Assembly (NCBI RefSeq): GCF_010389155.1
Contig: NC_057767.1
Span: forward strand, 4,819,765-4,883,764
Source: Erigeron canadensis
Taxonomy: Eukaryota; Streptophyta; Magnoliopsida; Asterales; Asteraceae
DNA length: 64,000 nt
Direction: 5' to 3'
Positions 32,635-59,881 of the stretch are shown here, one piece after another. The notes below the pieces were generated by a model, which was given only the letters and a program-made list of their open reading frames with translations, did not search any database and was not told the DNA's origin. The first letter of the stretch is position 1; each line of letters begins with the position of its first letter. The position numbers were made by a program, and so were the translations under genes.

Positions 32635-32811
32635 TTGTGGGTGTGGGTGGGGAAAAACAGGGACTAAATGTAATAATTTAACACCATATTCATTTAGCAA
32701 CACTTGAAACATATTATTGTCTGTAATATGAGTACACATGATACAATTACAAACATGAAATTAACATCCGTAAAATTAGATCACAAATTTGCTTTCTGAA
32801 TATTGTGCATA
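32210..32811. other. 3' flank of tandem kinase gene 1
   Basis: From about 32228 the sequence matches 41466-41700 and 43159-43487, the 3' flank of the second tandem kinase gene. This shows that the duplication covers flanking DNA. It includes a (TG)n-rich microsatellite at about 32599-32650. Confidence 0.6.
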
Positions 32812-35228
32812 TTAATGTTGGATTTGAGACAACATGATCCTACAATCCTTACTATTTGGCCTCTCTTTTGGATTATCAAGCGTACAAAAACAAGCAATCT
32901 TAAGAACAAGAAGCATCTGTTCTTGATACCCATTTCCTAAAAGGCTCGGGTCAATTGCTTCTTTCGGGTCATCAGATGTCATAACCTTTCTCATCCATTT
33001 AACGAGACTTACTTTTAAAGTGTGTTGAAAAAATTCGTCAGAAGGAAGCTTTCCCACGACCAACACCCCTAGTATCATCCCAAAACTATAGATGTCACAT
33101 TTTTCCGTAAATTTCATGGTTTGATGATACTCAGGCGCAATGTATCCTAATGCACCCGCAACATTGGAACTTGTCATATGTGTTTCAGCGTCTGGGATTG
33201 ATTTTGCCAGCCCAAAATCAGCAATTCGGGCCTCCATGTCATCATCAAGGAGCACATTTGCAGGCTTTAAGTCTCGGTGGACTATACGGGGCGTGTGATT
33301 CATGTGGAGATACTCAAGCCCGGTTGCAACCCCAATTGCAATCTTGTATCTCGCAAGCCAATCTAGTTCTCCACCATCTCGACCTTGTTGCAAAATGTCT
33401 TGCAAGCTTCCGTTTGTCATGAACTTGTAAATGAGATAATGACAATTTGGTCGAGACACATGAGCAAGTAATGGTACTATGTTCCGATGACGGATTAGAC
33501 CGACTGTTTTGATTTCTGCTTGGATTTGTCGCATTTTTTTGTGGAGTAAATACGTGTCTTCTTCCATGAGCTGGGCTGTGTCTTTGGGAGGTTGTATGAT
33601 CTTTTTTATCGCGATCGTCTTAATCATTCCTCCCCTTATATGAGCTTTAACTACTTCTCCACAACCACCTCTTCCCACTTTTTCCAGACCCAAAAACAAA
33701 TTGTCATCCTCCAAAAACGTAAGCTCCTTTGCCGTAATTGATAGACTAAAGATCGTGGTCCCTGATACATTACCATTTGTTAAATCATAATCAAACACAT
33801 TTTAAACACCATCAAAGGTACTGTCATTGAGGATATAATCCCACTAATTGATCATAATCAGACACATTTCCATAATGTATAACTTGGTGGAAGAACCGGG
33901 TTAGGACTCAAGTTTTATGAAGAGTCATTAAGGTTTGGGAGGGTCAAATTTCTGTTTCAGAGTTCAAATTTCTGATGGGTTGAAACACTGCGTAATGGAC
34001 TTTCGGCGACGACACTTGTCAGTTGCAGAAAGTGCCCTTGTTATTTTACCTTGTTGCTGGTAGTGGATACTGGTGTTCTTAAAAGTATACCTTATTTCGT
34101 ACGTGTAACTATGCACTAAATAATTAAAAAAGAATCTGCACACAATAAAAGGAAGATTGAAGTACCTAAACTTTTATCAAGGGAGCTAAACGGAATCACA
34201 TCAAATATTCTTCCAAATATCTTCTTGGGTGGAGGTAGCGACCAATTATTGGTTTTTTGTTGCGAAAACAATACAGATTGAGCGAGTAGAGATTCAAGAC
34301 TAAAGACAACCTCGGTCATGGTAGGACGGTGATTTGGATGATAATCGAAGCATCTTTCAGCTATCCGAGCAAACCCTTTTAAACATTTTAGAGATATCTC
34401 ATCTCGTATACCGGAATAAACTATTTGCTTTAAGTTCCCTTCTTTAATTGATTCTTGTATCCATGTTACTAGGCCGCATTCAAAACTTCTATCCGATGGT
34501 CTCTTTTGACACAAGACTTCAAACAATACCACCCCAAAAGCGTACACATCAGACTTCCTTGTCAACTTTCCCGTGGCAAAGTAGTTTGGATCAATATAAC
34601 CAAAAGTGCCTTTAACAAGTGTGTTGACATAAGTTGATGCTTGATTTATTGGACCTATTCTAGCCAACCCAAAATCCGAAATTTTTGCCGCCCAACTTTC
34701 ATGTATCAAAATATTTGAGCTCTTGACATCTCTATGTATAACACCAACCTCAATACCTGTGCCAGTGTGAAGGTAGTCTAAGCCACGGGCTGCACCTATG
34801 CAAATCTTGAGTCGTTCAACCCAAGAAAGAGGAGTATGGAGTTGATATAGAAGATTTTCAAGTGTTCCGTGAGGCATGTACTCATACACAAGGATCATTT
34901 CTTTTTCATAATTACAATAACCAATCAAAGACACCAAATGAGCATGACGCAGTTTGGAAAGCATTTCAACTTCCGCCCAGAACTCTGTCGCCTCTTGATT
35001 TGATATCGAATCCAACCTTTTAATTGCAACATCAACATGGGTTGTTTCAATTCTAATATTGCCTTTGTATACTTTCCCAAAACCTCCTTTCCCAACTACT
35101 AATGACTCTTTAAAATTGTTTGTTGCTAATAGAATTTCATCAAACTCAAACTGACAACAACTTTGTGACAATCCAGCAGTGGAGGTGGATGCTTCAGACC
35201 CTTTTCCATGGCCACTATCAGGAAACAT
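32812..35228 (-). CDS. Predicted tandem kinase: FERONIA-like kinase fused to SOBIR1-like kinase, copy 1
   Basis: Exons 34166..35228 and 32812..33761, joined by a 404-bp phase-1 intron (34165..33762), give 670 residues with no signal peptide or membrane segment. Kinase A (about 27-320) resembles CrRLK1L/FERONIA kinases: GKGGFG, K70 (VAIK), HRDVKSSN (D167), DFGLA (D185), VKGTFGYIDPNYF. Kinase B (about 358-670) closely resembles SOBIR1: FLEDDNLFLGLEKVGRGGCG, IAIKKIIQPPKD (K407), RHRN, LAHVSRPNCHYL, HRDLKPANVLLDDDMEARIA and DFGLA (D536), then YIAPEYH. All catalytic motifs are present in both. Junction AGT TTA G|GG ACC keeps frame. Alternatively these are two separate genes, with kinase B starting at its own ATG; but the donor after kinase A and the acceptor before kinase B are both conserved in copy 2. 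The gene is divergent from the SERK-like gene at 37589. Confidence 0.75.
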
Positions 35229-35906
35229 GATTGATAAAGGTCGGAATATCAAAAGGCCTTACCTTAATTGATTAAGGTAGGATGCACAGTCTCCTTCAAA
35301 ACTGGAGATCTTCTTGGAATTGAAATAGAGATGGACCCCTCACGATCAAAGAAACAAACCTACACGCGCGTAATCTAAAAAAAAGTTCAAACTATAAACA
35401 TGATCAAGATTTAGGTGTTATTTCTTTAATTCTTTTCTAAGATGTATGTCAAAAATTTGTGTTCTGATTTTATGTTTTCAATTTAAGATGTTGTCCAAAA
35501 TTCAACAAGTTTAATAACGAAAGATAGTTTGTTTTCTAATCCAAATATTTTGTCCAAATAAATATAACTTAAAAAACCATATCATCGAATTCATCTAATC
35601 AAAAATCAACAAATGCATTAACTTTTTTGTAATTGAACAAAGCAAAATTAGCATCAATTTAATCTAAAAATTCATAAACTTTTCAAACAACTTCTGATCA
35701 TTATTTGAATACATTAATCATCATGCTATAGTACAAGTATTACATGTCTCAATATGATAAAACCGATTTAATATTATTTTTAAACTAATGTTGTTACTCG
35801 ATATTATTTACGAAACTTTTAAGAAACAACAAGGTGATACAACTTACATATTCGATCTTTAAACACGTACAAGAACAAGACTGACTAAAATATCACTCTC
35901 TTTATA
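35229..35906 (-). promoter_or_regulatory. Promoter and 5'-UTR intron of tandem kinase gene 1
   Basis: A minus-strand TATA box TATAAAG at 35900-35906 is followed by a leader exon ending at 35848 before GTAAGTT. A matching acceptor AAG|GCCTTTTGATAT ends the leader intron at 35258, 29 nt before the start codon. The same TATA, donor and acceptor occur at matching positions upstream of copy 2. Confidence 0.55.
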
Positions 35907-37588
35907 GAGAATGAAATTTGAAATGGAAATATGAAATATGTGATGTTTATATTTGTATATAGGAGTCAACAGTTTATGGTAAACGGAATGATGGAAGGCT
36001 AGTGAGGCCTTTCCAATGTCGTATTCATTCTCGTATTTTCTGGACTGTTTTCTCAAGAATATGGTTGGAAAAGGAAATTTCTCAAACATGTTCTCAAATC
36101 ATTTTCTGATGAGAATAAAAATTAAAAAAAAAAAGGAGAGAGGAGAGCCAAAAGGTGGTCCCATTCTTTATCTTGACCAATCAATTAAAAAAACAAAAGT
36201 TTTAGACCCGTTTTGGTTGTAACAAATGTTTTTAAGTTTGCATTTCTCGTTTTTTTACTAAATGCGAGGGGTTTTTTCAATGGGTTTTGCTAAACGATTT
36301 AACGAAACACTAACAGGGCGTTTGATTGCAAAAAAACATTTATTGTTTTTTATTTTCGTTTTCCAAGAAAAAATGAAAAACAGAAAACACATTCTAATAA
36401 TAGTTTTTTAAAAATATTTTCTAAGAAAACAAAAACAATGTTTTTCATTTTTTCATAGATAACTTGAAAACATATTTTTCTTGTTTTCCATTTTTAATTT
36501 TCATTTTCCATTTCATTCTTCCCCATCCCCTCACATCTCTAACATGTTTTCAAGTTTCTAATTAAAACGCGTTTTTAAAATTTTTATTTGTTTTTCTAGG
36601 AAATAAAAACTCCTTTCATTTTAAAAAAAATTATAAATGAAAACTAAAAAACATTTTCTACAACTAAACGCGCCCTAAGCGTTTTCGTTAAGGTGTGCTA
36701 AATAGTTTTACACTTACCATAAAATTCAGGAGGTGCGCTTTTGATATAGAAAGTCGCAACTCATATCATTTTTTCTTTTCCAATTCTAAAAAACAAGTAA
36801 AAATACTAAAAAAACATTCTAATTATAAAAACACGTTACTTTAATTTTTGTTTTAAAAAACTTAGAAAACATGTTAGAGATGAGACAGGAGAGAGGAGAG
36901 GAAGATGGAGAATGAAATTAAAAATGTAAACGAAAAATGGAATACAATAAAATTATGTTTTCAAATATTTCATGGAAAAATGGAACAAAAAATTTTTTTT
37001 TCTTCAAAAATTCTTTTAGAATACCATGATTATAACGTTTTTCTGTTTTCTAGAAACACAAAAGCGAAAAATAAAGGGTATTTTCTGCAACCAAATGTGG
37101 TGTTTATGTTTCATTTTTTTATTTTATAATTCAATAAAATATTTAAGAACGAGATAAGAAAAAAATATGGTTGTCAATGATACAAATAGATGTGGTGTTA
37201 CATAGTGTTAGTCTTAGTCACATTAGTCATTTTGGGTGGCTTAATCTATACTAGAGAAGTTCATTACCGGGCGTTGCCATAATTTTCAAGATATTCTAAG
37301 AAAGTTTTTGCAAATTTCTCAACATTGAGAGTAAACAATTAACAAGGTACACATATGCGTTCTAATACTTCCTATGTAGTAATTTTCTTTCTTTACATGT
37401 GTATCTTTGGCTGGATTTTTTTTTTATGGCCGGATATATTTCCTCCATCCCCTGTCACAAAATGAGATTTTCAGAATTTCAGACCCTATTGTGAGGCCAT
37501 TTTTGAGACCTTGATAGCTGTTGACAGATTTATCAGTCCGATTTGGTGATAATCGGATCGGCCAGTCTCCGAGTCAAACTTTACAACC
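35907..37588. other. Shared intergenic space of the first head-to-head pair
   Basis: Separates the divergent tandem kinase and SERK-like genes. It holds a Harbinger-type MITE (36314-36675), a related AT-rich stretch (about 36740-37120), and the conserved leader AACAAGGTACACATATG near 37340, shared with the second pair. Confidence 0.5.
36314..36675. mobile_element. PIF/Harbinger-type MITE
   Basis: 362 bp bounded by TAA on both sides (36311-36313, 36676-36678). Inverted ends are CAGGGCGTTTGATTGCA on the left and the complement of GGGCGCGTTTAGTTGTAG on the right. TAA target and GGGCG ends fit Harbinger MITEs. Confidence 0.7.
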
Positions 37589-39433
37589 ATGGATTTCCCC
37601 GATGATGAATGGCGGCGACGCCGAAAGCCTCACGAGTTTTTCTTTGATGTGCCTGGTTAGTAGTTTTCATGTGTGGCAATTATATAAATCTGATACATCT
37701 CATAACCATAATGGAACTTTTATTTTTTAAAAAGAGAATTATACAAAAATGTTTATGTTGTGTGATGAACTATTTCTATTTGGGTATTTATTCTATGTAA
37801 ATAACTTTCAAATCTCAGTTATTGGATGTACCAAACCAAGTAAAACTTGCAAACTGATAACGTGATACACATGACATCTTATATGGTTGAGGTACTTACA
37901 TCCAATAATCCTGATTTGAAAGTTCATTGAATACAATAGTTTATTACAAAACATAAACATTCTTGTATAGTTTATTACATTTAGAGACCCTATATCCTTT
38001 TTAAATAAAATTAGTCTGTCTAAGGAATTTATATCATTTCATACGAGTAATGAATTTGGACACTTGGTGTGCGACTTTTGAGCCATCTTTATCAGCATAT
38101 GCATTTGATTACATCAACTTTTTCATGTCCTAGTCGTCATGTAAAAGGTTCCTATTTGCAGCTGTAGAAGATCTGAAAGCTCATTTGGGACAGCTTAAAC
38201 GGTTTCCTTTCAAAGAATTACAAGTTGCAACCGATAACTTCAGCAATATAAACATATTGGGTAGAGGTGAATTGTATAATGTCTACAAAGCACAACTAGC
38301 CGATGGCTCATTGGTTGCTATAAAACGGATGAAGGAAGAACAAACACAAAACGGGGAGCTTCAGTTTCAAATGGGAGTTGCGATGATTAGTATGGCCGTT
38401 CATCGCAATCTCCTTCGCTTAAGGGGATTTTGCATGACACCCAAAGAGCGATTACTCATTTACCCCTATATGGCCAATGGAAGCGTTGCATCACGTTTGA
38501 GAAGTAAGGGTTTCATCATCATTTGTCATAACATTATCATTGTACTCATTTATCACTATTCATAGTATTTTAATAGAAAGACCGCCAAACGAGCCCACAT
38601 TGGACTGGCCTACTCGTAAACTGATTGCATTAGGGTCAGCTAGAGGACTTTCATATTTGCATGATCATTGTGATCCGAAGATCGTTCATGGTGATGTTAG
38701 AGCCAATAATATTTTGTTGGATGAGGAGTTTGAGGCTGTCGTTGGAGGTTTTGGTTTGGCTACACTAATGGACTGGAATGATACACCTGTACGTGGCACC
38801 CTCAGGGATCTCTCAAAAGGAAAATCATCAGAAAAAGCTGATGTGTTTGGGTATGGGATCATGCTTTTGGTGCTCATTACTGGACAAAGGTCGTTTGATT
38901 TTGGACTTGCTAATGATAATAACGCCATGCTACTGGATTGGGTATGCATTTTCTTTAGCTTTCTTCATTGGTTTCAAGTATGCATTATGAAAGTGAATAA
39001 GTGATTATTGTGGCTTTTAGAATCTGAATTAGATAATTACTTGATCAAGGCAGGTAGAAAATTTGTGTTTATTGGTAATGAGTTCTTTTATTCTTTTCTT
39101 ATTTAGGTGAACGGACTTCTTAAAGAGAACAAATTGGAGATGCTTGTTGACCCTGATTTGGATACCGATTATGTAGTGGTGGAGGTGGAACAGTTGATTC
39201 AAGTGGCATTGCAATGTACACAAGACTCACCAATGGAGCGGCCAAAGATGACAGATGTTTTAAGAATGTTGGGAGGTGACGGGCTTGCAGAAAGATGGCA
39301 CGAGTGGCAGAAGGGGGACGTTTCGGAAATTTGCCAAGAATTTTGCGTTTTAACACAAAACCCAAACACTGATTGGATTATGGATGACTTGATTGATAAC
39401 CTGGAAGCAGACGAATTATCTGGGCCCAGGTAA
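37589..39433 (+). CDS. SERK/BAK1-like cytosolic pseudokinase, copy 1
   Basis: Exons 37589..37655, 38162..38503, 38577..38941, 39107..39433; phases agree and give 366 residues. It begins [12 protein letters not shown], then [10 protein letters not shown] and HLGQLKRF, which is the cytosolic juxtamembrane part of SERK/BAK1. The LRRs and membrane helix found in SERKs are missing. The kinase follows SERK closely ([44 protein letters not shown]) and ends with the SERK tail SGPR. Key losses: the glycine loop reads GRGELY, HRD reads HGD at 174-176, DFG reads GFG at 194, and about nine residues of the activation segment including APEY are gone. Lys77 remains. It should be catalytically dead; binding or decoy function is inferred. 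It lies head-to-head with the tandem kinase gene. Confidence 0.85.
37738..37965. mobile_element. Foldback MITE in intron 1 of the SERK-like gene, copy 1
   Basis: Two arms are inverted copies: ACAAAAATGTTTATGTTG near 37743 against its degenerate complement near 37945-37962, and TCAAATCTCAGTTATTGGATG against its complement near 37900. The same intron of copy 2 lacks it. Confidence 0.6.
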
Positions 39434-41700
39434 TCAAGATCGTTAAGAAGTGATCTTTTTATAATTGGGTTATTGTAATCCTCTTTTACAGTTTTACCTG
39501 GCACATGCAAGTAACCAATAATCTTTCAAAATTGTTTTATTCTATAACATGCTTTATCTTTAAACCTGCACCCTCAATGTTTACATTGAACAGCAATATC
39601 ATTATATATAAACATTCAAAATCTTGTTAAGTTCCCTGAGTATCTATCGAACGAAATGCCAGTTAGTATCCCATGTATAGGGCTTTTATGATATACTAAT
39701 TCCTATATATATCAAATGGGAGTTAGGGGGTGTGTTGTTAAACATCATGAATGATAGATTGAGCTGCAAACATAGGCTTTCTTGAGAAATGGTGTTCGTT
39801 TTGGATTTTGGGTATATTTCCTCAGTTGCTACATGGTAGTGCAAATCTCAGTTAGCTCATGACCGCGCTGTTGCATTCAATTAAGGTTCTGATCCTTGGC
39901 CAACTGCTGTTTTGTTAGTTTCTTTGTTTGGTTGGTTAGCTTTCTGGATTAAACAGTATCAAGCCAACTAATTAGTTCATTATAGTGCTGTTGCATTCAA
40001 ATTTTTGTATGCATTTAGCAAGGTAGATTGAGTACATTTTTGGCTTGATTATGTTTAATCCAGAATTTATTTTAGTAAGATTAACTTAATTAGAATAGTA
40101 CAATATTGATAAATCATCAAAAATTCATAATACAACAATAAGTATCAAGACTTCATAGCTAATTATCATTGTTTTTTTACTCTGGTGTTTATCTTATTGT
40201 TGTTTGTATTCAAGTACATTTTGGTTTCATATATAATTTTGATACTTTGTTAGCCACATGTTTTCCTTTTTAATATTTAAACGGATATATAGATACGTAG
40301 GGCCGGTTATGCGTTTTTGGATACCATGAGCAAAATTTAAAATATGCGTCCTATGTTAAAAAAAAAAAGGTTAAGTGAGCCGGAATGCAGTCAACTAATC
40401 ACCAAAAGTTATTGTATGCATGAACTCTAGGTTGGCTTTATTGTATTCAGAAAACTTAAAATTATGTTTATTGTGAACATAAAACGGATGTGGGCCCGGT
40501 TACTTCACATAAAACTTGTTTATTTTCATATATTTTTTTATTGTGTGTATAAACTAATCCCAAAAAGTTATTGTGTGCATTCCACGTAAGCGGTCAACGT
40601 GAAAGTGGTGACTGACTAACTTCTTACCCGGTAACTTTTCTTTACTATGGGACTCTTGAACAAGTTTCCTGAATACAATAAAGTCGACCTGGAGTTCATG
40701 CACACAATAACTTTTCAGGATTAGTTAACTGCATTTCGACGCACTTATTAAAGAAACAAAATAACATTTCCAAGAGGTATGACTTTACAAGGAGAATGTG
40801 CAGGAGATGAAGAGGAAATCACCCGGGTCGCCTAGAACACCACCCCAGCAGGCTACTAATTTCGTTCGTTGTACGGCTTCCAAAGTACCCTCATATTCAT
40901 CCATTTCACGCAAAACTTAACAATTCCAGGCTGCCACATCGCACGAGTCCCCCTATCGTGCCAAGTAGCCCCACTTCACTCCTGGTTTTGTAAAAGGGTT
41001 CGCTCTACTACTAATTATTCAAAGGGACAATTACATGACAATTCGCACATAAAAGAACAATTCCAAACTATGTTTATACAAGTTGCTAGTTCAACCTCTA
41101 TATGGTACCATGAAATACAAGGTTTTTCGGTCAGGGCTCCAAAGATGCTCTAATTTATTACTTAACAAGCTGTTTGCCACATTATAAGGTGTTAAAGTTT
41201 GATCTATCCCAAAGGTTGATTTTTCGGCAACCCCATACCCCGGTCTGGTCATGTGCGAGGTGAATTAATCTCATGCAAAGCCCCACTTAGATTGTGGTCA
41301 AACCAACTGATATACCTTTACCAATGAATTCTTCTACAATTAAGTTGCAACTGTTGAAAATCATAGTCTTCAAGTATACTACAACCTTTAGGGTTGTACT
41401 GGCATCATATAACGGGGTGAATCGATGGGCATCCAATTATGATACTGGGACTAGGGTTCTTTTTAAATATGATAAGTACCTAACCTATTCTGCTATTTGA
41501 AGACCTACAATTTATAATGTTTTCTTTAGGAGTTATATATTACTGTAATTTGTATGTTGGTGATTTTCAAGTTTGAACTTGAGAAAAAAATAAATAAGAT
41601 TAGAGAGCAAGAAGTGAAAAAATCAATTAAAGTCTTATACTCCGTATATTATAGCTTTAATCATAATAGTCAATTAGCTTACTCCTTAATTACATCTTTG
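39434..41700. other. Intergenic; duplicated flank, copy A
   Basis: No gene seen. From about 39960 to 41470 the sequence recurs downstream of the second SERK-like gene at 59945-60930 and again at 61877-62775, e.g. AAGGAGAATGTGCAGGAGAT and CCATACCCCGGTCTGGTCAT. From 41466 it matches the 3' flank of tandem kinase 1 (32228). Confidence 0.6.
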
Positions 41701-43158
41701 AGAAAATGTCACAAATGGTCCATGTGGTTTGTCACATTCGCATTTTGCCCCCTGTGTTTTTTTTCGTTGCAAATGGTCCTTGCCTTTTTCGTTTTCGTTG
41801 CCAGCGGTTCCTAGCACTAACTTCCGTTAGTTTTAGTCATTTAATAATGGTATAATCGTCCATTCCAATTCAATCCCCTTCACTTAATCATCTTCTTCAA
41901 CTTTTATACCCATTCTTGTCATCTTCCCAAAAACCACAACCCAGATTCCGGTCACTTTTCCTTTTTCAATGATCTTAAAAACTAAAAACCACTAACGAAA
42001 TAAATCAAGACCAAATCCCCAAATCTGATGATAAAAACAAACACAAATCTAAAAGGAATAAAACCCTCCAAGGCCTCCACCATCAGTCCATCATGAACCA
42101 AGATTGAATTTAACCTAACAATTCATTGAAAAAATCAATATACATCAAACCCAAAATTGAATTGTCAAACATTTCAAATCAATACCACCATATAAAACAT
42201 CAAAACTCAAAATTGTAGGGGCGATTTTTATCCTCAAGACCAATTAAATCACCACTTAATCATAAATACTTGACAAAGAAAAATATGTATAAAATTTCAC
42301 TGTACATCTGTGAAACATAAAGTTAAAGAAATTTAGCATTCAAAAAATGTCATACATGAAGGTAACCGAATATCAAACAATAAACTTTAGCAAGTGAGAA
42401 TTAAAAGAACAAAACCCAAATTACGCACCTCATGTAATCCAAAACTCAGTTAACTCATCCTTTCAGCAAGCAACCAAAATGGAATGGTTACCCAACCCAT
42501 CAATTTCATTTACGTTTCATACTTGCAGAAAGAAAGTCAAATAATAACAAATAAATTTTGTTGTCGTCGCAATTTCGTACCACCACCTCACTGCCATCTT
42601 CAATTTCGGCCACTATTCATGCAAATTCTGATCATTTGAAGGTGGGGAGGGGCCAATTAAGGGTGGGATTGATGTTTATTTGATTGAAAAAACACAGGTT
42701 GATAAATCTGGGGGTTTATTGTTCGAAAAAAATAGGTAAAAACCCTAATTTAGCCGTTGCCCAGCCACCTCTAATTCCGGCCACTTCCAGGCCAAATTCC
42801 GATCAATCAAATGAAGGGGAGGGGGCAACTGATGAATGGATGGATTTATAGATTGATGGATGATTTTTTTTCCATATATATGTATACTGATATGTATATT
42901 TACAAATTAGTGTATATATATATATATTCTTAATTTTAAAAGATTTTTATCACATATAGTCTCCCTGGTTATCACAAAGACGATTATGCCCTCGCGTGAT
43001 TCGCACATGAAAGGTTTTAACGGCCAAATTTAATAGAAGTTAGTGTCAGGGGCTTCTAGCGACGAAAACGAAAAAGACAGGGACCAGTTGCAACGAAAAA
43101 AAAACACAGGGGACAAAATGCGAATGTAAGGTTATAAGGACCATTTGTGACATTTTCT
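41701..43158. mobile_element. Mutator-like non-autonomous element with long TIRs
   Basis: 1458 bp. TIRs of about 135 bp begin AGAAAATGTCACAAATGGTCC at both ends, with roughly 80% identity by eye. The flanks read TTACATCTTTG and TTACATTTTTTG, an imperfect duplication of 9-11 bp, as MULEs make. The corresponding empty site is in the flank of tandem kinase 1 at about 32446-32456. No transposase frame was seen. Confidence 0.75.
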
Positions 43159-43487
43159 TTACATTTTTTGTTTGGTTTTCAAATCCCAAAAATGTCTAGT
43201 GGAATGGAATTTATAAAATTCATTAGCATTGTGGCTCAAAAGTTACGATCAAAATTTAAGAGGATGTGAGGTTTCTATCCATCTGGATCCAAATAACAAC
43301 AAACGCTCTGAATCTGAAAACTTTTGATCGAAGAGGATTATTCACATCTTTTTTAATTTTACATCATATTCATTTAGCAACACTTGAAACATATTATTTT
43401 CTGCAATACGAGTACACATGATACAATTACAAACATGAAACATCCGTAAAATAGATCACAAAATTTGCTTTCTGAATATTGTGCATA

Positions 43488-48792: not shown

Positions 48793-48800
48793 TATGGATA

Positions 48801-48870
48801 CTAGATTATTGTCCCGCGTAATACGCGAGTAAATATATTTTTATACTTATATATATCAAAAATACTATTT
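48801..48870 (-). mobile_element. Helitron-like 3' terminus
   Basis: Minus-strand end CGCGTATTACGCG hairpin followed by GGACAATAAT and CTAG|T. The 5' boundary was not located, so the true element extends rightwards by an unknown length. Confidence 0.45.
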
Positions 48871-49164
48871 TCTTCATTAAAAGTTAACAAATTAAAATAT
48901 TCAATTTCACTTTATAAACTTTTTTTTTTACCTTGATAATTTCACAAACACTTATTGTGTTGCTTATTAAGTTTTATTGATTAAATAAATCATTCAATGC
49001 CAAAAGTTATTGCTTATCCATGTCATCACAGATATCTTGATGTCATTCGGATTTTCATGTCAAATCATAAAAAATGTCACACATGACACATTCTTTAGAT
49101 GATGTCAAGACATACAACCTTCTAAACCGAGTTGCGAGATTGTCACCATCAAGCCAATGATCAT

Positions 49165-50701
49165 TCCAAAATCTTGTTTTATTTTCACTCCCAACTGTTC
49201 TTTAATAACATCGCAATCAAATGTGTCTCAGAGAATGAGGAACATATATTATTACCATTTGTTTACTCAGGAACGCAGACTCAGAACCATGAATCATATT
49301 GATGATTTTAAACCAAACGTAATTTAGATTTTGAATCACATATCATATCCATTTGCACATATCAATGCTAAATTAAGAGTATCCGGACCACCAAAACCTA
49401 AACCACCCACTTTATTACTTGGCAATTGTCTATCAGTAATCCATTACATTTCATTTTATGAGTTGGCCCCCCTCCTCTCTTACTCCTTCCACCAAAAAAA
49501 TGAAGTTGTGATCTTTATCAATCGAAATAGAGAAAAATGATATATCCTAAATACTTTGAATTGCCGAGTTAGTATCCATCATAGACAACACATTAGTATT
49601 GAGTTTAGATTTTATTCTATAATAACTTTGCAAAATTAATGAAATATAACCATGGATGGAGTTCTCACTCCAATTTGGTTAATCTTGTCTTATTTTCACT
49701 CCCAACTGTTCTTTAATAACATCTTAAGGGGGCTAGCAATCGAGTGTGCCTTAGAGAATAAGGAACATATATTTTTCCATATATTATTACCATTTGTTTA
49801 CTCAGTAACGCAGACTCAGAACCATGAATCACATTGATGATTTTAAACCTAACGTCATTCAGATTTTGAACCACATGTCATATCCATTTGTACGTATCAA
49901 TGCTAAATTAAGAGTATCCAGAGCACCAAAACCTAAACCACCCACTTTTTTACCTGACAATTTCCTTTTAGTAGATCCATTATATTTCATTTTCCAAGTT
50001 TGACCCCCTCCTCCATTACCCCTTCCACCAAAAAAATAAAGTTGTAACCTTTATCAATCGAAATAGAGAAAAATGATATATCCTAAATACTTTAAATTAC
50101 CGAGTTAGAAAATATCATAGACAACGCATTAGTATTGAGTTTAGATTTTATTCTATAATAACTTTGCAAAATTTATGAAATATAACCATGGATGGAGTTC
50201 TCACTCCAATTTGGTGAATCTTGTCTTATTTTCGCTCCCAACTGTTCTTTAATAACATCTTAAGGGGGCTAGCAATTGAGTGTGCCTCAGAGAATGAGAA
50301 ACATATATTTGCCCATATATTATTACCAAAGTCAGAACCGTGAAAAACATTGATGATTTTAAACCTAACATAATTCAGATTTTGAACCACATGTCATATC
50401 CATTTGTACATATCAATGCTAAATTAAGAGTATCTAGACCACCAAAACCTAAACCACCCACTTTTTTACCTAACAATTGTCTTCCAGTAGATTCATTACA
50501 TTTCATTTCCAAGTTCGACCCCCCTCCTCTCTTACCCCTTCCACCAAAAAAAAATGAAGTTGTAATCTTTATCAATCGAAATAGAGAAAAATAATATATC
50601 CTAAATACTTTGAATTGCTGAGTTAGAATCCATTATAGACAACACATTAGTATTGAGTTTAGATTTTATTCTATAATAACTTTGCAAAATTTATGAAATA
50701 T
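49165..50701 (-). repeat. Tandem array of LINE 3'-end fragments (three units)
   Basis: Units begin near 49171, 49684 and 50219 and are about 515-535 bp long. Each has TTATTTTCACTCCCAACTG, GATGATTTTAAACC and CATGGATGGAG(T/A). On the minus strand each encodes K-x-V-G-G-L-G-F-G-G-L-x2-L-N-L-A-L, the conserved block at the C-terminal side of plant L1-type reverse transcriptases. All units carry stops. The third unit is split by the solo LTR, and resumes at 53346-53376. Confidence 0.75.
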
Positions 50702-53340
50702 TGTAACACCCGTCGTTTAAAAATAAGGATTTCCAAAAACTTTTGCCTAACGGCGTTAAAAGAAGCGGAATTAAACTTTAAAAGTCCAAACCAACAAAAT
50801 TTGTTTGGTTTATTCATTAAATGGTGTTACTAGCCATATCATCAAAATAAGTCTAAATGGAAATCCATCGGTTGCCCAACATTAAACAACCGAACACATT
50901 ATCAATACAAGTCATTATTGTCTAAACATAAAGCAAATGTCTAAAGCGAGCAGCCACTATGGGTAAACTATAGCCAGCTTCAAGATCATCTACCCATGCC
51001 TCACATCTTCTCACATCTACCTGCTCACTATTGTTAGACCTGAGGGCACAATACATTTTAAAAAAGCAAGTGTTAGCTAACAAATTAGCTAAGTAAGATA
51101 ACACATAAGTTATAAAACGTTTGTCCATTTAAAACATTATATAAAAGTCATATTAAGTCGTTAAGGCACATGTCCTCAAACATATCATCACACTTACATA
51201 TCATATCATCAACATCATTCATATTAGGATGGGTCATCTTAAATGTGCCTAGTCATCTTTTGCATCATCACATATCACATTTGAACATCTTTATAATTGT
51301 GACAAAAGTCACGCATCTCATATAACATACGCATCTCGTTAAGTGTGACAAAAGTCGCACCCGACTAGATGAACCACCATTCAGTAGTAAATCAATGTCG
51401 TTAAGGAATGGCAAGCCAATCCAGGAGTAATCCGTATGTTCAAAGACATTGGTGGGTAATCACTCCACCCGGAGATACTCAAACCACGTAATTACGTTGC
51501 AAGGAGCCACCCAAACAACCATATACGCACTCACCGGGCAAGGGCAAGTACGAGTTAAGCTTAACACTTTCATATCATATACGAGCTCGGTTTTCATCAC
51601 ATATAGTTTAGGTGTCCACGTTACCTAAACATCATCACATATCATCTTTTACGTTTGGGCCCTTAAACGTGCACGTGTCATGACAACTTAATAAGTCTAG
51701 TGAACTAGATGAACAAGCCATGTAACCATGCACATTTCACATATCATCATCATATATCACATTTCATAGCATTTCATTTCATATCATCACATCGCATACA
51801 TTGTTACATCACGTATATCGTCATATATCATTGCATATTGTATATCATTACAACATTGCATAACATTTATCATCTTAAATCGTACATCATTTTATATCAT
51901 ATCTTCTATTAAGCATACATAACATCTCATAGCAATACGTATCATTGGGGTAGCATTTCAGGCTTTTATATTCATCTACATAACCCATATCACCTCCCGT
52001 ATAATCCCGAATACCCATAAGCAAACAAGATACCATTTGGGATGTTATTATATGAAAACTATGTTTATGTTGAACCCTCAGCGTGTCAAAGTAGTGTATC
52101 TTACCTCGTTGAAGAGCACAACAAATGATAACACAAGTTACCGAGCTTTGCAAGTATTTTTGACTACCTATAATCATTAAACGACATAATGAGCTAAACA
52201 AGTACCTACTTACTTAAGTTCATGAATCAAGCCTAAATATCTATAAACATGACCTATGACAAGGCTTTATGCATCGGACATTCGATTAATACTTTAAAGC
52301 TTACATAACTCGACGAAACTCGGCATACACTCACTAAATTAACCTTTCTGGAAACTTGACATTACAATCATCTTTCAAAAACATTACCATTAGAAAGTAG
52401 ACTCTCTCACGATTCCGTGGATATCTTATTTGTCAAAAACGGAGTTACGGTTCAAAAGTTACGGCCATTTTAAAATTCTATCGCTATTGCGTCGCAACTA
52501 CCAAATTGCGTCGCAGCTAAGTGTCATTGTTTCTTGGTTGCGCCGCAGCTTAGTAGCTACGCCGCAGCTAGTCCCGATTCTGCACAAAACGCATTGTTTA
52601 ACCTTCAAAACTTAACCAAACACACCCCAAACGACCCCAAACCTTATAAAAAACTTTTGCACCTCAAAATTCACCATTTTAAGACCATAATGATGCAATG
52701 AAATCATTGATTAATCCTTACTTGATTTGCATCACATAGTTAAACGTTTTGGGTTACCGAATCGATCAAAACACACGTTTTTGACATCAATTGATCTTCT
52801 AATAACCTAGACCAGTTATGGATCTGATTATATGATTGAAAGGACATAAAATCAATGTTATTATACCTTGGATACCCGGAGATTACAAAGAGGATGCAAA
52901 AACTTGATCAAAACACTCCCGAATCAACCGAATAACGATGAAATCGAACAATAGGATGCCATGGAACAAAGGGAACGACTAGGGCTTCAAAGGAAGTGTA
53001 TATTCTCTAATTTATGAGTCTAATAACAAATTATTAGACCCTTAACCCGTTTTTTAGTTTCCAGCTTTATCAAAACTAGTCCTTAGACTTCCTTATGGCT
53101 CATATTTAGCTTAAAACACCTATGGGGAATACTTACAACACATTAAACACTTTAAGCACCTCCAAAGACATTAAAATATACCTTTAGACACATTAACACA
53201 TGAATCATTAAGGCTTTAAAACCTTACACATAATGCACATTAATCACACATAAACATTAAATCTCTTAGAGACTTAACGGACACGTTGTGTTGACTTAAC
53301 GACTCAAGTCAACCGTTAATTAAAAGTTCGGGATGTTACA
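50702..53340. mobile_element. Solo LTR of a large (probably Ty3-type) retrotransposon
   Basis: 2639 bp with inverted ends TGTAACA and TGTTACA and an exact 5-bp target duplication AATAT (50697-50701, 53341-53345). No coding sequence, primer-binding site or purine tract lies inside, so it is a single LTR left by recombination. TGTAACACCC ends are common in Tat/Ogre-type LTRs. The interior carries a short cluster of GCGTCGCA / GCCGCAGC motifs at about 52486-52570. It sits inside the LINE-fragment array. Confidence 0.85.
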
Positions 53341-53756
53341 AATATAACCATGGATGGAGTCCTCACTCCAATTTTGGTACAATGTAACGTTTTTTAATGG
53401 TATTTTTGTAATTTTGTTCCTACAATTAAAATATTAATAAATAAAGAATACATACAAACATTGACTTTGTTGTCATGTGCCTCTTTTTTGGAAGTACATT
53501 ATTTGGTTGGAAACATTATTTTTAAGATAAACCTTTATAATGGTAGAATAAAATTTTAAGTTGTTTTATTTTTAATAAAATAGGGGAAAAAAAGGTTGGA
53601 AAAAAGGCTTTTTCTTTGTTTAGTTAATTGTACAGTACATTGATAATATAGTTCTATGTGAAAACATTATATTTTTTTCAAAATCCTTTATAATGGTAAT
53701 CCAAATAATCATGCATATTTAGAAGTTAAATTATATATCATTAATTTCGATAATTT

Positions 53757-54997
53757 CTTTTCGTCCCTAAAGTTGACACGTTTTTCACTTTTGATCTCTA
53801 AACTTTAAAAATTACAATTTTGACCCTAAAGTTGGCCAATTTTTTCAATAATCGTCCTTTGGCCTTACGGCGTTAAAAAGTAACCGTTAACGTACGCACG
53901 TGCTAGACACGTGAGGGCACTAATGTCATTTCACCTTACATCGAGGGACGAAAAGTGAAAAAATAATTACTTGAGGGACTAAAAGTGAAAAAATAGCTAC
54001 TTGAGGGACGAAAAATGAAAATCATACAAATAAACTTATTCTTCCATTCTTTCTTTTCCGATCATCTTCTCCGATCAATTTTACCGATGGAATTTTCCGA
54101 CTTTGAATCCAAATCTATACCACAAACAAAATCATTTACTTAAATTCATGACATTCAAAACACAACCAATCAAACAAATTATAGTTCAAACATGTCAGTC
54201 ATCTTTTTTTTTCTTTTCTAAATTTTGATTTTAAATTAAAAGGAAGACGGTGGATGGTGGTGATTCTAGGTGGCGGCGGTTGGTTGGTGGTGAATGTAGA
54301 CGGCGGTGGTTGGAGGTGACTGTAGATGGCGGTGGTTGGAGGTGACTGTAGATGGCAGTATTTGGTGGTAATTGTATGCGGTGGTGGCTGGTGGTGATTG
54401 TAGGCGGTGGTGGCTAGTGGTGATTGTAGGTGGTGGTGACTGGTGTTGATTGTAGTGGCGGTGGCTGGTGGTATTTATAGGCAGCGGCGGTGGCTATGGG
54501 TGGTAGTTGCTCGTGGTGGTTATAGACGGCGGTGGCTGGTGCTGGTTACAGACGGTGGTGGCTGGTAGCGAGGCTGTTGTTGGTGGTTATTAGGTGGTGG
54601 TGATTGGAGAGGCTTGGGGGTAAAGGGAAAATAAATGTCTAGTCGGAAAATTTCATCGGAAAAGACGATCGGAAAAGAAAGAAATGGAAGAATAAATTTA
54701 TATGTATGATTTTCATTTTTCGTCCCTCAAGTAGCTATTTTTTCACTTTTTGTCCTTCAAGTAGTTATTTTTTCACTTTTCGACCTTCAAGTAGCTATTT
54801 TTTCACTTTTCGTCCCTCGGTGTAAGGTGAAATGACATTAGTGCCCTCACGTGCGTACGTTAACGGCCATTTTTTAACGCCGTAAGGCCAAAGGACGATT
54901 ATTGAAAAAATTGGCCAACTTTAGGGTGAAAATTGTAATTTTTAAAGTTTAGGGATCAAAAGTGAAAAACGTGCCAAATTCAGGGACGAAAAGTGTA
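53757..54997. mobile_element. Foldback element with about 340-bp inverted arms
   Basis: The left arm (about 53757-54098) and right arm (about 54640-54997) are inverted copies: CTTTTCGTCCCT at the tips, GTAATTTT/AAAATTAC blocks, TTAACGCCGTAAGGCC and TTCCGATC near the inner ends. The terminal AATTTACACTTTTCGTCCCT wording resembles Mutator-like ends, but no target duplication was resolved. The centre is the minisatellite listed below. Confidence 0.7.
54240..54600. repeat. GGTGGTGATTGTAGG-type minisatellite
   Basis: About 12 degenerate units of 27-33 bp with the pattern GGCGGTGGTTGGTGGTGA then TTGTAG. Strong G/T strand bias. It forms the loop of the surrounding foldback element. Confidence 0.75.
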
Positions 54998-55221
54998 ATT
55001 TACTCTTTAATGTTGTTTAATAGAGCGTAACTTTTCCGTCACCACATGCTCCAAAATTGCAGATCAATGTTAAAGGTTGACATTCCCAAAGTTGTCACTC
55101 ACCTAAGCTAAACTCCCCCTTCTCAACACTGTCGTTGATAATTTCTAAACCCGACATTATATATATATATATATTGTAGATACATGGTGTTATGACCTTA
55201 TTAATACTCAATTTTATTTTA

Positions 55222-56825
55222 TTATGGTTTAAAATATAGCTTACTATATTTTTATTAATAGAAAATTGATCTATATATTTTATATGAAACATATCTTAAA
55301 TATTTCAAATTAAAATATGCTTTTTTTTTATATGATATTAACTATTATTCTATTGGATAAGATATAAGATAGATAGTATTATTTTATTATTAGGATATAT
55401 ATTAGCTATTAATCTATTGAATATATTATATTAGAATTATTAGGTAAAAAGTGTAAATTTGTGATGGAAAATCAAAAAGTGTAAATTAAATATAAAAGGG
55501 GATTTTTTTGTATAGTTTAAAGTATAAGTATTAATATTGTCATTTAATAAAGATGAAATAATTAAATTTGATCTAATGGTTTTATATCATAGATGAAATC
55601 CATCAAAGGGTTCTTGTTTCTTTAGGAATGAATTTAGCACCTTGTTATATCCAAAATAAATCAAAATCATTATACTAAAATAACAAATATTGTCGTCATG
55701 TTGATATTTATACCTTGTATATATAAGTATCAATCAATTGATAATTGATAAATTAGATAATAACTAAATATTAATATACGTATGAAAATTGAAAAGAACA
55801 CAATGTATGTAATTCTTTAAGTTTACCATAGTTAAAGGACTAATGTTGTGTTACTTAAAAATAAATTTGGTAATGCTACAATTATTTTGATCTAAATGTT
55901 GTGACTAAAAGTTTAAACTCATCTAACAGTCCTTGTTTCTTTATAAAAGAATTTAGGACCTTGTTATATATATGTATTGGTTGATTGGTTTTTATTAATA
56001 GAAAATTGATCTATATATTTTATATGAAACATATCTTAAATATTTCAAATTAAAATATGCTTTATTTTTTTATATGATATTAACTATTATTCTATTGGAT
56101 AAGATATAAGATAGATAATATTATTTTATTATTAGGATATATATTAGCTATTAATCTATTGAATATATTATATTAGAATTATTGGGTAAAAAGTGTAAAT
56201 TTGTGATGGAAAATCAAAAAGTGTAAATTAAATATAAAGGGGGATTTTTTTGTATAGTTTAAAAAGTATAAGCATTAATATTGTCATTTAATAAAGATGA
56301 AATAATTAAATTTGATCTAATGGCTCTAAATCATAGATGAAATCCATCCAAGGGTTCTTGTTTGTTTAGGAATGACTTTAGCACCTTTGTTATATATATA
56401 TTGGTTTTTTATTAATAGAAATTTGATCTATATATTTTATATGAAACACATCTTAAATATTTCAAATTAAAATATGCTTTATTTGTTTATATGATATTAA
56501 CTATTATTCTATTGGATAAGATATAAGATAGATAGTATTATTTTATTATTAGGATATATATTAGCTATTAATCTATTGAATATATTGTATTAGAATTATT
56601 GGGTAAAAAGTGTAAATTTGTGATTGAAAATCAAAAAGTGTAAATTAAATATAAAGGGGGATTTTTTTGTATAGTTTAAAAAGTATAAGCATTAATATTG
56701 TCATTTAATAAAGATGAAATAATTAAATTTGATCTAATGGTTCTAAATTATAGATGAAATCCATCCAAAGGTTTTTGTTTGTTTATGAATGAATTAGGCA
56801 CCTTGTTATATATATATATTGGTAG
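55222..56825. repeat. Triplicated AT-rich repeat
   Basis: Three copies starting near 55250, 55993 and 56408, each with GAAAATTGATCTATATATT, GATATTAACTATTATTC, GGTAAAAAGTGTAAATTTG and CATCAAAGGGTTCTTG. Copies 2 and 3 are 415 bp apart in direct tandem. Copies 1 and 2 are separated by about 330 bp of unrelated AT-rich sequence. Confidence 0.8.
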
Positions 56826-57199
56826 ATAAGATATATAACTATCATTATATGATTAATTATATGAATAGTACAAGGAATAAAATTTGCTAATTATGTAGCA
56901 ACTACATATAACTAAATGAAAAAGAATAAAACAAATCAAATTTTGACAAAACTGGAAAACAAGAAAAGATAAAAAAACACGCAAACATTATACTATTACT
57001 ATTAAATGTTAAACACCTAAGAAATGAAAAGTACCATATAAATATAAAGGGAAAATGATTAATTATCTTAATTCATAAGCCTAAAATACTCTTAATTTAT
57101 AAGATGGTGAATATGTGAAAATTCAAATGGTAAGATTAAGAAAAAGATTAATTGAAATTCGAATTTATATGTTACATTTATATAGTTTTAAAATGAATA

Positions 57200-57446
57200 T
57201 TCCATCCGTCCCAATGCAAATGCCCTATTTTAACTTTTGAAGTTTTTTTTTCCGCAACTTCGACCGTAAATTGTTTCGTGTGTTATATATAATTGATGTA
57301 AAATATATGGATAGATAGAGCTATAGGTATATTTTTAATTGATATAACTTTCATTAGTTATTATATATAAACAAAAATATTTACAGTTAAAGTTAAAAAC
57401 AAAAAGATTTTTAATTAAATTTGGACATTCAAATTGGACGAGGGAG
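57200..57446. mobile_element. Stowaway-type MITE
   Basis: 247 bp flanked by TA (57198-57199, 57447-57448). Left end TTCCATCCGTCCC, right end GGACGAGGGAG, with shared inner wording to the Stowaway element at 6736. Confidence 0.75.
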
Positions 57447-57528
57447 TAAATTTTAAGACATTTTCCAAATACATAAAAAATAAAAACAGATAAATAGGTA
57501 ATGCTAGACGGCTCAAGTAGTCATCTCA

Positions 57529-57552
57529 AAAAAAAAAAAAAAAAAAAAAAAA
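57529..57552. repeat. Poly-A run
   Basis: A homopolymer of 24 A upstream of the second SERK-like gene. No retroposed sequence was identified in front of it. Confidence 0.7.
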
Positions 57553-57815
57553 CAAACGCAACGCTGTTTACTTTTTCCTCTTCACATTTGCTAAAAGAAA
57601 GATTTCGCTGATTTCTCAAGTGTAAACAACAAGGTACACATATGTTTAATGTTTTCTAATACTTCCCATGTATTATTTGTTTATATCTGTATCTTTGACA
57701 TGATTCTTCTAATTTATCTTCACTTTTTCTCCATCCCCAGTCACAAAATCGGATATTTTGAAGGCCATTTTGGTGATAATTGGATCGGCCAGAACCCGAG
57801 TCAAACCAACTATAT

Positions 57816-59881
57816 ATGGATTTCCCCAATGATGAACGGTGGCGACGTCGAAGGCCGCAAGAGTTTTTCTTTGATGTGCCTGGTTAGTAGTTTTCCCCTG
57901 TCTGGTCATTTTTACCCCGGTAAAAACACGAATTAGCCTGTTTGATCTGATACATATTTAAGCCCGAATGAATTTATACTCTTTAAAAATCAGCCAACGT
58001 GCAACTAAGTTTGATAGTTTGGACTAAAAATCTTGAGCAGGGATGGAATCCACGAAAATGGGTAAACCACAGGGATGAATGCTGCAGTTAACTCAATAAA
58101 AAAAATTTGCCTGTCAAAGAAGGAATTATCTTTTAATAATAAAGTTGGAGGTCAAACTTTTTCATGTCTTAGTCGTCGTTATGTAAAAGGTTCCTACTTG
58201 CAGCTGTAGAAGATCCGGAAGCTCATTTGGGACAGCTTAAATGGTTTTCTTTTAAAGAATTACAAGTTGCGACTGATAACTTCAGCAATAGGCATGTGTT
58301 GGGTAGGGGTGGATTGTATAATGTCTACAAAGGACGTCTAGCCAATGGCTCATTGGCTGCTGTAAAACGGATGAAGGAAGAACAAACACAGGATGGGGAG
58401 CTTCAGTTCCAAATGGAAGTTGCGATGGTTAGTATGGCCGTTCATCCTAATCTCCTTCGTTTAACGGGATATTGCATGACTCCAACAGAAAGGTTACTTG
58501 TTTACCCCTATATGGCCAATGGAAGTGTTGCTTCCCATTTGAGAGGTAAGGGTACCAGTTGACAAAGCCGACTTAAGCGTTTTGGTGGCCTTCGTAACCG
58601 ATTTCGGAGGCCTTAATGCTACACTTACTAACAAATTACAAACTAAAATTTAAAAACACTGTGGCATGCCATGGACCAATCAATAAAGAAAAAGAAAGAA
58701 GAAAGATAAAAAAGAACCTTGTTTGATTGGTTAGAAATATGTTTGTAAATTACTATTTGTTAGTCTAGCATTTTTCTTTCTAAAGTCTCTAACAACCATT
58801 CTTTATCTGGACTTGGTACCATATTATATATTACTAAAGCTATTTTTAAAAGGCTTTACAAACTCTCGTTTCTTTTAAGTCTTGTTAAAAAAACGTAAAC
58901 ATAAGTTCAAGACCAAAGATACCTAAGTCAGGAAGTTGAAAAATCTGGAGGCCTTTATTATGTCGAGGCCTTAAGAAACCGCCTAACTCACATATATGGT
59001 AGAGCCGGCCTTCGTTACCACCCATCATCATTTGCCATAGCCTCAACATTGTACTCATTTGTCACTATTCATGCATTGCTTGTGTTTGTATAGAACGACC
59101 GCCAAACAAGCCGCCATTGGATTGGCCTACGCGTAAACTGATTGCATTAGGGTCGGCTAGAGGACTTTCATATTTGCATGATCATTGTGATCCGAAGATC
59201 ATTCATCGTGATGTTAGAGCGGATAATATTATGTTGGATGAGGAGTTTGAGGCTGTTGTTGGAGGTTTTGGTTTGGCTATACTAATGGACTGCAATGATA
59301 CAGATGTCACGACAACTGTACATGGCACCCTCGGGTGTATTGCACCCGAGTATCTCTCAACTGGAAAAGCATCAGAAAAAACAGATGTTTTTGGGTACGG
59401 GATCATGCTTTTGCAACTCATTACTGGACAAAGATTTTTCGATCTTCGACCTGATAACGATAATGACATCATGCTACTGGATTGGGTATGCATTTCTGGT
59501 CACTTTCTTCTTTGGTTTCAAGTATGCATTTGCGTTCATTTGTTATAATGAGTTTTTTATTCTTTTCTGCTTTAGATGAACGGACACTTTAAAGAGAAGA
59601 TATTGGAAATGCTAGTTGATCCCGATTTGAAAACCAATTATGTAGTGACGGAGGTGGAACAGCTAATTCAGGTGGCATTGCAATGTACACAAGGCTCACC
59701 ATTGGAGCGGCCAAAGATGTCAGATGTCGTAAGAATGTTGGGAGGTGATAGGCTGGGAGAAAGATGGGACGAGTGGCAGAATGAGGAACTTCTACAATCT
59801 CTACAACCTACAAGCACTGATTGGATTATTTATGACTCAATTAGTAACCTGCGACCCCTCGAATTATCTGGGCCTAGGTGA
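57816..59881 (+). CDS. SERK/BAK1-like cytosolic pseudokinase, copy 2
   Basis: Exons 57816..57882, 58204..58545, 59094..59485, 59576..59881 give 368 residues. Exons 1 and 2 have exactly the lengths of copy 1 (67 and 342 nt). It starts [13 protein letters not shown] and lacks the LRRs and membrane helix of SERKs. It is better preserved than copy 1: HRD is intact (174-176), and [20 protein letters not shown] is complete. DFG is GFG at residue 194 and the glycine loop reads GRGGLY, the same changes as copy 1 in DFG and in the last loop glycine. HRDxK reads HRDVR. Loss of the metal-binding Asp predicts no normal kinase activity, though ATP or partner binding may remain because Lys77 is present. 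It pairs head-to-head with the tandem kinase gene at 46549. Confidence 0.87.

Follow-up and report, generated by a model that had tools for sequence, protein, structure and literature searches.

We analysed a 64,000-nucleotide stretch of the genome of Erigeron canadensis (Asteraceae, Astereae; C7:4819765-4883764 of a 426 Mb assembly), hereafter the window, together with 250 kb of surrounding sequence (314 kb in total). The window holds a duplicated divergent gene pair, predicted to encode a cytosolic tandem kinase of FERONIA and SOBIR1 type (TK1 and TK2) and a cytosolic pseudokinase of SERK/BAK1 type (SERK1 and SERK2). A full-length SOBIR1 gene, P0012, lies outside the window and serves below as the reference. 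The genes, with their exons and intron relics, are as follows (window coordinates).

32812..35228, minus strand: TK1, FERONIA/CrRLK1L-type plus SOBIR1-type tandem kinase gene (spliced model P0002; FERONIA and SOBIR1 as solved relatives)
35228-34166 and 33761-32812, minus strand: TK1 exon 1 (FERONIA-type kinase) and exon 2 (SOBIR1-type kinase), 670 amino acids (aa)
33762..34165, minus strand: TK1 fusion intron, phase 1, with a relic of the SOBIR1 transmembrane end in its 3' part (tblastn and frame read-out against P0012)
43488..46549, minus strand: TK2, duplicate tandem kinase gene, exons 46549-45487 and 44431-43488, 668 aa (model P0004)
44432..44489, minus strand: TK2 fusion-intron relic of the SOBIR1 transmembrane end, aligned to P0012 residues 268 onward
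37589..39433, plus strand: SERK1, SERK/BAK1-type pseudokinase divergent from TK1 (model P0241; motif read-out)
37589-37655, 38162-38503, 38577-38941 and 39107-39433, plus strand: the four exons of SERK1, 366 aa
57816..59881, plus strand: SERK2, duplicate SERK-type pseudokinase divergent from TK2 (model P0121; motif read-out)
57816-57882, 58204-58545, 59094-59485 and 59576-59881, plus strand: the four exons of SERK2, 368 aa

All four reading frames are intact after splicing, and the spliced proteins are 100% identical to the public Erigeron canadensis proteins P0002, P0004, P0241 and P0121, whose names (THESEUS 1-like, cysteine-rich receptor-like kinase 23-like and, for two of them, SERK1-like) are unrelated. 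The coordinates and strands proposed in an earlier note on this DNA were exact by this standard, and the plus-strand SERK/BAK1-like genes do diverge from the minus-strand kinase genes in both pairs. That note had set a CrRLK1L-like kinase next to a SOBIR1-like kinase; both families are present, but as two halves of one gene rather than as neighbours. A model with two separate genes in place of each fusion was set aside on the basis of an in-frame stop upstream of the SOBIR1 exon of TK1 and of a donor and acceptor common to both copies; TK2, unlike TK1, could also begin within its intron (open frame 43488-44504). The AlphaFold2 models were unusable (mean predicted local distance difference test score of 46 for SERK1 and 54 for TK1; shallow, near-identical alignments) and have no bearing on folding either way.

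The closest solved structures are the FERONIA kinase for TK1 residues 17-315, the SOBIR1 kinase (7ctv) for residues 357-668, and the BAK1 kinase (3tl8) for SERK2 residues 10-341. The window proteins thus have kinase domains closely related to those of the SOBIR1 and BAK1/SERK co-receptors, from which they differ by the lack of a leucine-rich repeat (LRR) ectodomain and transmembrane segment, by the loss of SOBIR1 signalling residues (Thr522 in TK1, Tyr469 in TK2) and by the GFG of the SERK copies. They equally lack the malectin-like ectodomain and membrane segment of FERONIA (CrRLK1L) receptors, so that the tandem kinases belong neither with these nor with SOBIR1 (RLK-Pelle_LRR-XI-2) co-receptors, which are marked by an LRR ectodomain, a GxxxG transmembrane segment and an active RD kinase with Thr522 and Tyr469. 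A Pfam scan of TK1 gave kinase families in two stretches and two weak kinase-like matches (APH, ABC1). With two kinase domains per gene, the predicted TK1 and TK2 are tandem kinase proteins (TKPs) in the broad sense. They agree with the strict sense (PMC6170490) in having no extracellular, transmembrane or other conserved domain: Pfam finds none in TK1 and the membrane segment is an intron relic. Both keep Lys, HRD Asp and DFG Asp in the FERONIA and the SOBIR1 half, TK1 with Thr522 changed to Ala. The strict tandem kinase-pseudokinase, one domain of which is without catalytic residues, is represented by two other public fusions, P0009 of Erigeron (HRN) and P0011 of Taraxacum (GFG).

SERK1 and SERK2 retain just the juxtamembrane and kinase parts and, judged by sequence, have none of the LRR ectodomain, membrane segment and active kinase of a SERK/BAK1 co-receptor. 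No SERK or FERONIA ectodomain was matched by tblastn (E 1e-3) in the 314 kb, where very short LRR exons could escape; the exception was weak LRR cross-matches to the full SOBIR1 gene. These 314 kb contain SERK sequence solely at the two window copies. The family names, the intracellular form and the missing SERK ectodomain claimed earlier are therefore supported for these predicted proteins by their solved relatives and, within the limit just given, by the ectodomain search.

The claim of a dead DFG also stood. DFG is replaced by GFG in both SERK copies, whereas it is kept in 119 of the 120 best SERK matches (protein searches were read for their 120 best matches), the sole exception being SERK2 itself. 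Lys, HRD Asp and DFG Asp are kept in all 131 other SERK matches read, a set in which P0122 aligned in part only and from which one further match with two kinases was excluded. SERK2 is changed at three of 11 key sites (the glycine-loop Phe and Gly, and the DFG Asp) and keeps HRD and APE. SERK1 is changed at six, which include beyond those of SERK2 the helix-C Glu, the HRD Arg (HGD) and APE, the last being lost with a deleted stretch of the activation segment. SERK1 and SERK2 group together (100/100) next to the BAK1-type sequences (90/84) in a 32-SERK tree, where the exact position of their clade is unsure; their branches are very long (0.40 for the stem, 0.38 and 0.45 for the tips), against a median tip length of 0.008.

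Self-BLASTN of the window delimits two copies of the segment.

32218..40365: duplicated segment copy 1, TK1 and SERK1 with flanks
41457..60400: duplicated segment copy 2, TK2 and SERK2; other sequence of about 10 kb (47.3-57.6 kb) intervenes

The two copies agree in gene order and orientation, with collinear blocks at 32.2-36.0 and 41.5-47.3 kb and at 37.3-40.4 and 57.6-60.4 kb, and synonymous divergence (dS) between copies is alike for the two genes (TK 0.339, SERK 0.315), which bears out the proposal that the pair was kept together through a duplication. The intergenic distance is 11.3 kb in pair 2 against 2.4 kb in pair 1. The sequence between TK2 and SERK2 also carries, at 49170-50701 and 55249-56817, repeats of two kinds: one unit, of about 0.5 kb, is present three times, and another, of 417 bp, is repeated in tandem.

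Both genes have been under purifying selection since the duplication. The ratio of nonsynonymous to synonymous divergence (omega) is 0.28 for TK (bootstrap 0.22-0.37) and 0.43 for SERK (0.31-0.60), and amino acid identity between copies is 76-82%. The SERK tail (31 codons, omega 1.16) and juxtamembrane part (33 codons, 0.94) are apparently unconstrained. Such selection is also likely because intact open reading frames (ORFs) would otherwise be improbable: in neutral, substitution-only simulations at 0.15 changes/site, none of 400 ORFs remained open for any of the four genes, and at 0.10 changes/site 1.0-1.25% did for the SERKs and none for the TKs. Chance clustering of neutrally evolving pseudogenes, named in the earlier note as the outcome that would undo its reading, is rejected on an omega below 1 in both genes and on frames that survive where neutral simulations fail.

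The most constrained part of TK is the FERONIA half (omega 0.21), which keeps its Lys, HRD Asp and DFG Asp. This would suit an ordinary cytosolic signalling kinase, with an active FERONIA half in a role like that of Pto among receptor-like cytoplasmic kinases (RLCKs), a SOBIR1 half acting as allosteric element or scaffold, SERK as activator, and nothing guarded. The nearest solved relatives of the FERONIA half include 2qkw and 3hgk, titled 'Protein kinase', which we take to be Pto. We nevertheless find this arrangement very improbable: the APE Glu is gone from the FERONIA half, and the SOBIR1 half evolves faster (nonsynonymous divergence, dN, of 0.133 versus 0.054).

TK1 and TK2 belong to an array of eight FERONIA-type kinase genes (FER1 to FER8), all on the minus strand at C7 4.854-4.946 Mb, which extends past the window. 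FER1 is TK1, FER2 is TK2 and FER7 is P0009, the third public FERONIA-SOBIR1 fusion; FER3, FER4, FER5 and FER8 have no second kinase closely behind them. P0012 lies on the same strand at C7 4962575-4964386, 16 kb past FER8. FER1 and FER2 are sisters (92/94), the other branches have no firm order, and a single clade of the three Erigeron fusions is without support on the FERONIA halves (37/7).

The end of the TK2 intron matches the SOBIR1 transmembrane end (P0012 residue 268 onward) in frame, and runs without gap or stop into exon 2; the counterpart relic is broken in the TK1 intron, and a similar stretch occurs in P0009. The presence of a membrane-segment relic within an intron leads us to conclude that a SOBIR1 copy truncated in its membrane segment came to stand behind a FERONIA-type gene. 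A new acceptor in the SOBIR1 juxtamembrane part then appears to have joined both kinases in frame. The SOBIR1-half tree unites TK1, TK2 and P0009 (100/99), sets them next to P0012 (93/87) and places P0011, the fusion from Taraxacum, in the other SOBIR1 group. A single origin of the four Asteraceae fusions was rejected on the SOBIR1 halves (approximately unbiased test, p-AU 0.0027), but a Taraxacum half that had been converted or replaced could give the same result. Among the 120 best matches of one protein search, a FERONIA-type segment is present in eight: TK1, TK2, P0009, P0011 and four Rhododendron records from three species. Since the Asteraceae SOBIR1 halves are split and those of Rhododendron are separate, the union of FERONIA and SOBIR1 probably took place in three lineages, although conversion or merged gene models could mislead here.

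Two further observations concern the array. About 0.4 kb behind FER6 (C7:4927133-4931099, L018) lies another receptor-like kinase (RLK) gene, presumably LRR-VIII-2-like, with no ectodomain in the short gap; donor and acceptor fit in frame, and the two may form a possible fourth tandem kinase with another second domain. In FER3 (C7:4885826-4887088, L014) and FER4 (C7:4901357-4902850, L015-L016), repeats at the end of the kinase exon contain five and six AGGTR donor-like motifs, respectively, spaced by multiples of 30 bp with one exception (57 bp) and in phase 1 in 17 of 17 cases over the eight FER genes. The repeats could offer a series of alternative splice donors, through which in-frame fusions would differ in the length of their linker.

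This setting raises the alternative that the pairs are by-products of a fast-changing Asteraceae kinase array, in which FERONIA-type genes splice to whatever kinase lies downstream and SERK is a passenger; FERONIA and SOBIR1 would then unite because their genes are neighbours. The eight genes in a row, the full SOBIR1 16 kb past their end, the splice-compatible RLK gene behind FER6 and the absence of a SERK beside P0009 all agree with it, as does the expansion of family PTHR27003 to 420 genes in sunflower and 245 in lettuce, reported to include two-kinase members without ectodomain (PMC8866362). Purifying selection on both genes, with no simulated frame surviving at 0.15 changes/site, and the duplication and retention of the pair as a unit speak against it, and we consider it unlikely.

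Seven residues that are key to SOBIR1 were read. All four Asteraceae fusions are altered at one of them, a different one in each: Thr522 to Ala in TK1, Tyr469 to His in TK2 (His503), HRD Asp to Asn in P0009 and DFG Asp to Gly in P0011. Among ordinary non-fusion SOBIR1 matches (550-700 aa), three of 94 depart at any of these sites. The TK1 lesion is located as follows.

33151..33153, minus strand: TK1 Ala558, in the place of Nicotiana benthamiana SOBIR1 Thr522 (40 residues past the HRD Asp, like 522 versus 482)

In Nicotiana benthamiana SOBIR1, T522A is reported to abolish kinase activity, the hypersensitive response (HR), mitogen-activated protein kinase (MAPK) activation and the production of reactive oxygen species (ROS), whereas Tyr469 is required for HR and MAPK activation and dispensable for kinase activity and ROS; D482N, the same change as in P0009, serves there as the kinase-dead control (PMC11109355). 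By its sequence, TK1 would be a natural equivalent of the laboratory loss-of-function T522A. Among the Rhododendron fusions, from three species, the HRD Asp is lost in P0008, and two are intact at the seven sites.

The same SOBIR1 and SERK lesions would fit a dominant-negative brake: the SERK pseudokinase and the signalling-dead SOBIR1 half would compete with the real BAK1 and SOBIR1 kinase domains for binding to one another or to downstream RLCKs, and damp signalling by receptor-like proteins with no sensing of effectors. BAK1 is reported to phosphorylate the kinase-dead D482N in vitro (PMC11109355), so a dead mimic can engage its partner. However, the membrane segment that co-locates the real partners is missing (SOBIR1 contacts in this segment are reported to be GxxxG-dependent; PMC10834447), and the divergence of the two copies would be unneeded for a plain dosage brake. 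We hold this explanation to be doubtful, if less so than the alternatives above.

Comparison of TK1 with P0012 gave sharply different values for the two lobes of the SOBIR1 half: 40/81 synonymous differences in the N-lobe (dS 0.81) and 11/121 in the C-lobe (dS 0.10; p 1.6e-10). The similarity is concentrated in two tracts, whose base coordinates were worked out by hand from the exon model.

33094..33363, minus strand: TK1 C-lobe converted tract 1, about residues 488-577 (codon windows 120-209, 3/63 synonymous differences against P0012)
32824..33006, minus strand: TK1 C-lobe converted tract 2, about residues 607-667 (codon windows 240-299, 0/36 synonymous differences against P0012)

The intervening codon window, 210-239, is TK2-like (2/19 differences) and not P0012-like (6/21), which makes the C-lobe a mosaic. 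About three residues differ from P0012 within the two tracts, the Thr522 site among them. The P0012 C-lobe resembles its counterparts in other species, with an end branch of zero length, and we therefore infer that SOBIR1 was the donor and TK1 the acceptor. The N-lobe protein tree rejects a grouping of TK1 with P0012 (p 0.002). Together with the synonymous sites, this pattern suggests that the C-lobe of TK1 has been overwritten by sequence of the neighbouring full SOBIR1 gene. Such a conversion would preserve a binding surface, as a competitive brake would also have it.

TKPs such as wheat WTK1/Yr15, Sr62 and RWT4/WTK3 and barley RPG1 are likewise single soluble proteins with two RLK-type kinases and no other domain, reported to arise by duplication or fusion and often to have one domain disabled (PMC6170490); the domain families here, FERONIA-type and SOBIR1-type, are different. 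We found no report combining tandem kinase, SOBIR1 and FERONIA in the literature searched, which did not include the TKP survey by Reveguk et al. 2025, nor any report there of a divergently paired SERK pseudokinase or of this locus. In a sunflower resistance interval, CrRLK1L genes with one or two kinases and no ectodomain are reported to adjoin LRR receptor-like protein genes (PMC8866362). In these OrDeb2-interval CrRLK1L-1 kinases, as in two lettuce FERONIA-named relatives, both halves are CrRLK1L-like, whereas the second half here is SOBIR1-like and a SERK pseudokinase stands head to head. The Rhododendron fusions (P0007, P0008, P0010/P0118) share the order of a FERONIA kinase followed by a SOBIR1 kinase in one predicted protein; they differ in keeping the malectin-like ectodomain (PF12819) and have a separate origin by the SOBIR1 tree, and they may be merged gene models. 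The pseudokinase/RLCK decoy system of RKS1-PBL2 with ZAR1 (cited in PMC6170490) also combines a pseudokinase with a mimic of an immune kinase, but the types here are SERK and SOBIR1, not RLCK. Two Citrus proteins with changed key residues were also seen: P0055 of Citrus sinensis has a precomputed Rx N-terminal domain, of the type found in nucleotide-binding LRR receptors (NLRs), ahead of a SOBIR1 kinase, and P0003 of Citrus unshiu has two SOBIR1 kinases in one protein. The pattern is suggestive of a SOBIR1 mimic tied to an NLR in Citrus.

SOBIR1 and BAK1 kinase domains are reported to phosphorylate each other (PMC11109355), and FERONIA to promote receptor-BAK1 complexes (PMC9366073); hence the three kinases share a common context. 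On the sequence evidence, the window proteins fit soluble mimics of these partner kinases, with folds under constraint, signalling residues gone and, in one of them, a new match to the real gene; they could act as bait or as competitive brake. The reading we favour, tentatively and short of an even chance, is that the SOBIR1-like half and the SERK pseudokinase are intracellular baits that mimic the SOBIR1-BAK1 co-receptor kinases. Effectors entering the cell to bind or modify the co-receptors would meet the mimics instead, and the FERONIA-type half, with its catalytic residues kept, would report the contact. It would perhaps signal to a helper NLR elsewhere in the genome, by analogy with cereal tandem kinase resistance proteins; some tandem kinases are reported to need such a helper (PMC12830362), and tandem kinase-pseudokinases have been suggested to act as decoys (PMC6170490). 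The bait, having lost SOBIR1 signalling residues, would be silent at rest, and it would remain recognisable through conversion from the full-length SOBIR1. The damage at catalysis or signalling residues and the apparent overwriting of the TK1 half from a real SOBIR1 lend the bait role indirect support, and the resemblance to a co-receptor kinase that an integrated decoy calls for is seen in the predicted TK1 C-lobe, 94% identical in amino acids to that of P0012.

Several observations weigh against a bait. No NLR was recognised by eye among ORFs of at least 200 aa in the 314 kb, a survey made with no domain search. A SOBIR1 half is missing from five of the eight FERONIA-type genes, and local gene adjacency can account for the FERONIA-SOBIR1 union. 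The TK-SERK pairing is not obligatory, since P0009, the third fusion of the array, has no SERK neighbour and no SERK pseudokinase from another species is among the 120 best profile-search matches. The FERONIA halves are without the APE Glu, in place of which they have Asn (Asn215 in TK1) or, in P0011, Asp. The P of 9.7e-6 for lesions in fusions against ordinary SOBIR1s is post hoc, the seven sites having been picked with knowledge of the sequences, and the fusions, being related by descent, are not independent cases; the TK2 lesion is the weakest of the four because Tyr469 to His also occurs in two of the 94 ordinary SOBIR1s. Finally, the best C-lobe protein tree joins TK1 with TK2 (55/78), and a grouping of TK1 with P0012 is not rejected (p 0.38).

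The bait reading may be extended to the whole array, which would then be a silent intracellular replica of the FERONIA-SOBIR1-BAK1 complex, an effector trap updated by gene conversion; we regard this as a long shot. FERONIA-type genes with a phase-1 donor at the end of the kinase exon would offer a docking platform at which kinase exons from nearby receptor kinases are captured, those of SOBIR1 on three occasions and perhaps those of the RLK kinase behind FER6. A captured SOBIR1 would lose its membrane anchor and signalling residues and be repeatedly re-matched to the effector target by ectopic conversion, and the divergent SERK pseudokinase would provide the BAK1 half in trans.

The surroundings of the pairs contain further genes and elements. 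Tandemly duplicated papain-like cysteine protease genes (window 5428-8109 and 16985-19107, about 82% alike in their best blocks) have a third relative at C7:4791655-4792275. A Copia-type element (8359-14384) is fairly young, since its 195 bp terminal repeats are 98% alike. A WD40-repeat gene at 21347-25284 is presumably ATG16-like. Just below TK1 are three tRNA genes on the minus strand (Rfam; 29814-29901, 30924-31010 and 32138-32209). Between SERK2 and FER3 lies a PP1-type phosphatase gene (family assigned by eye; window 63363-64000 and on to C7:4884535), with a second phosphatase fragment at C7:4894300-4894626.

Among plant resistance proteins other than NLRs, tandem kinase proteins form an important class, described chiefly in cereals; the present array is in a dicot. 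Its second domain is the co-receptor kinase that serves receptor-like-protein immunity; it is damaged at residues known from laboratory work and, it appears, partly overwritten from an adjacent SOBIR1. If the proteins are decoys, they would show which host kinases effectors attack, offer a natural series of dead SOBIR1 alleles and suggest gene conversion as a mechanism by which a decoy follows its target. If they are brakes, they would be a natural dominant-negative set for SOBIR1-BAK1 signalling.

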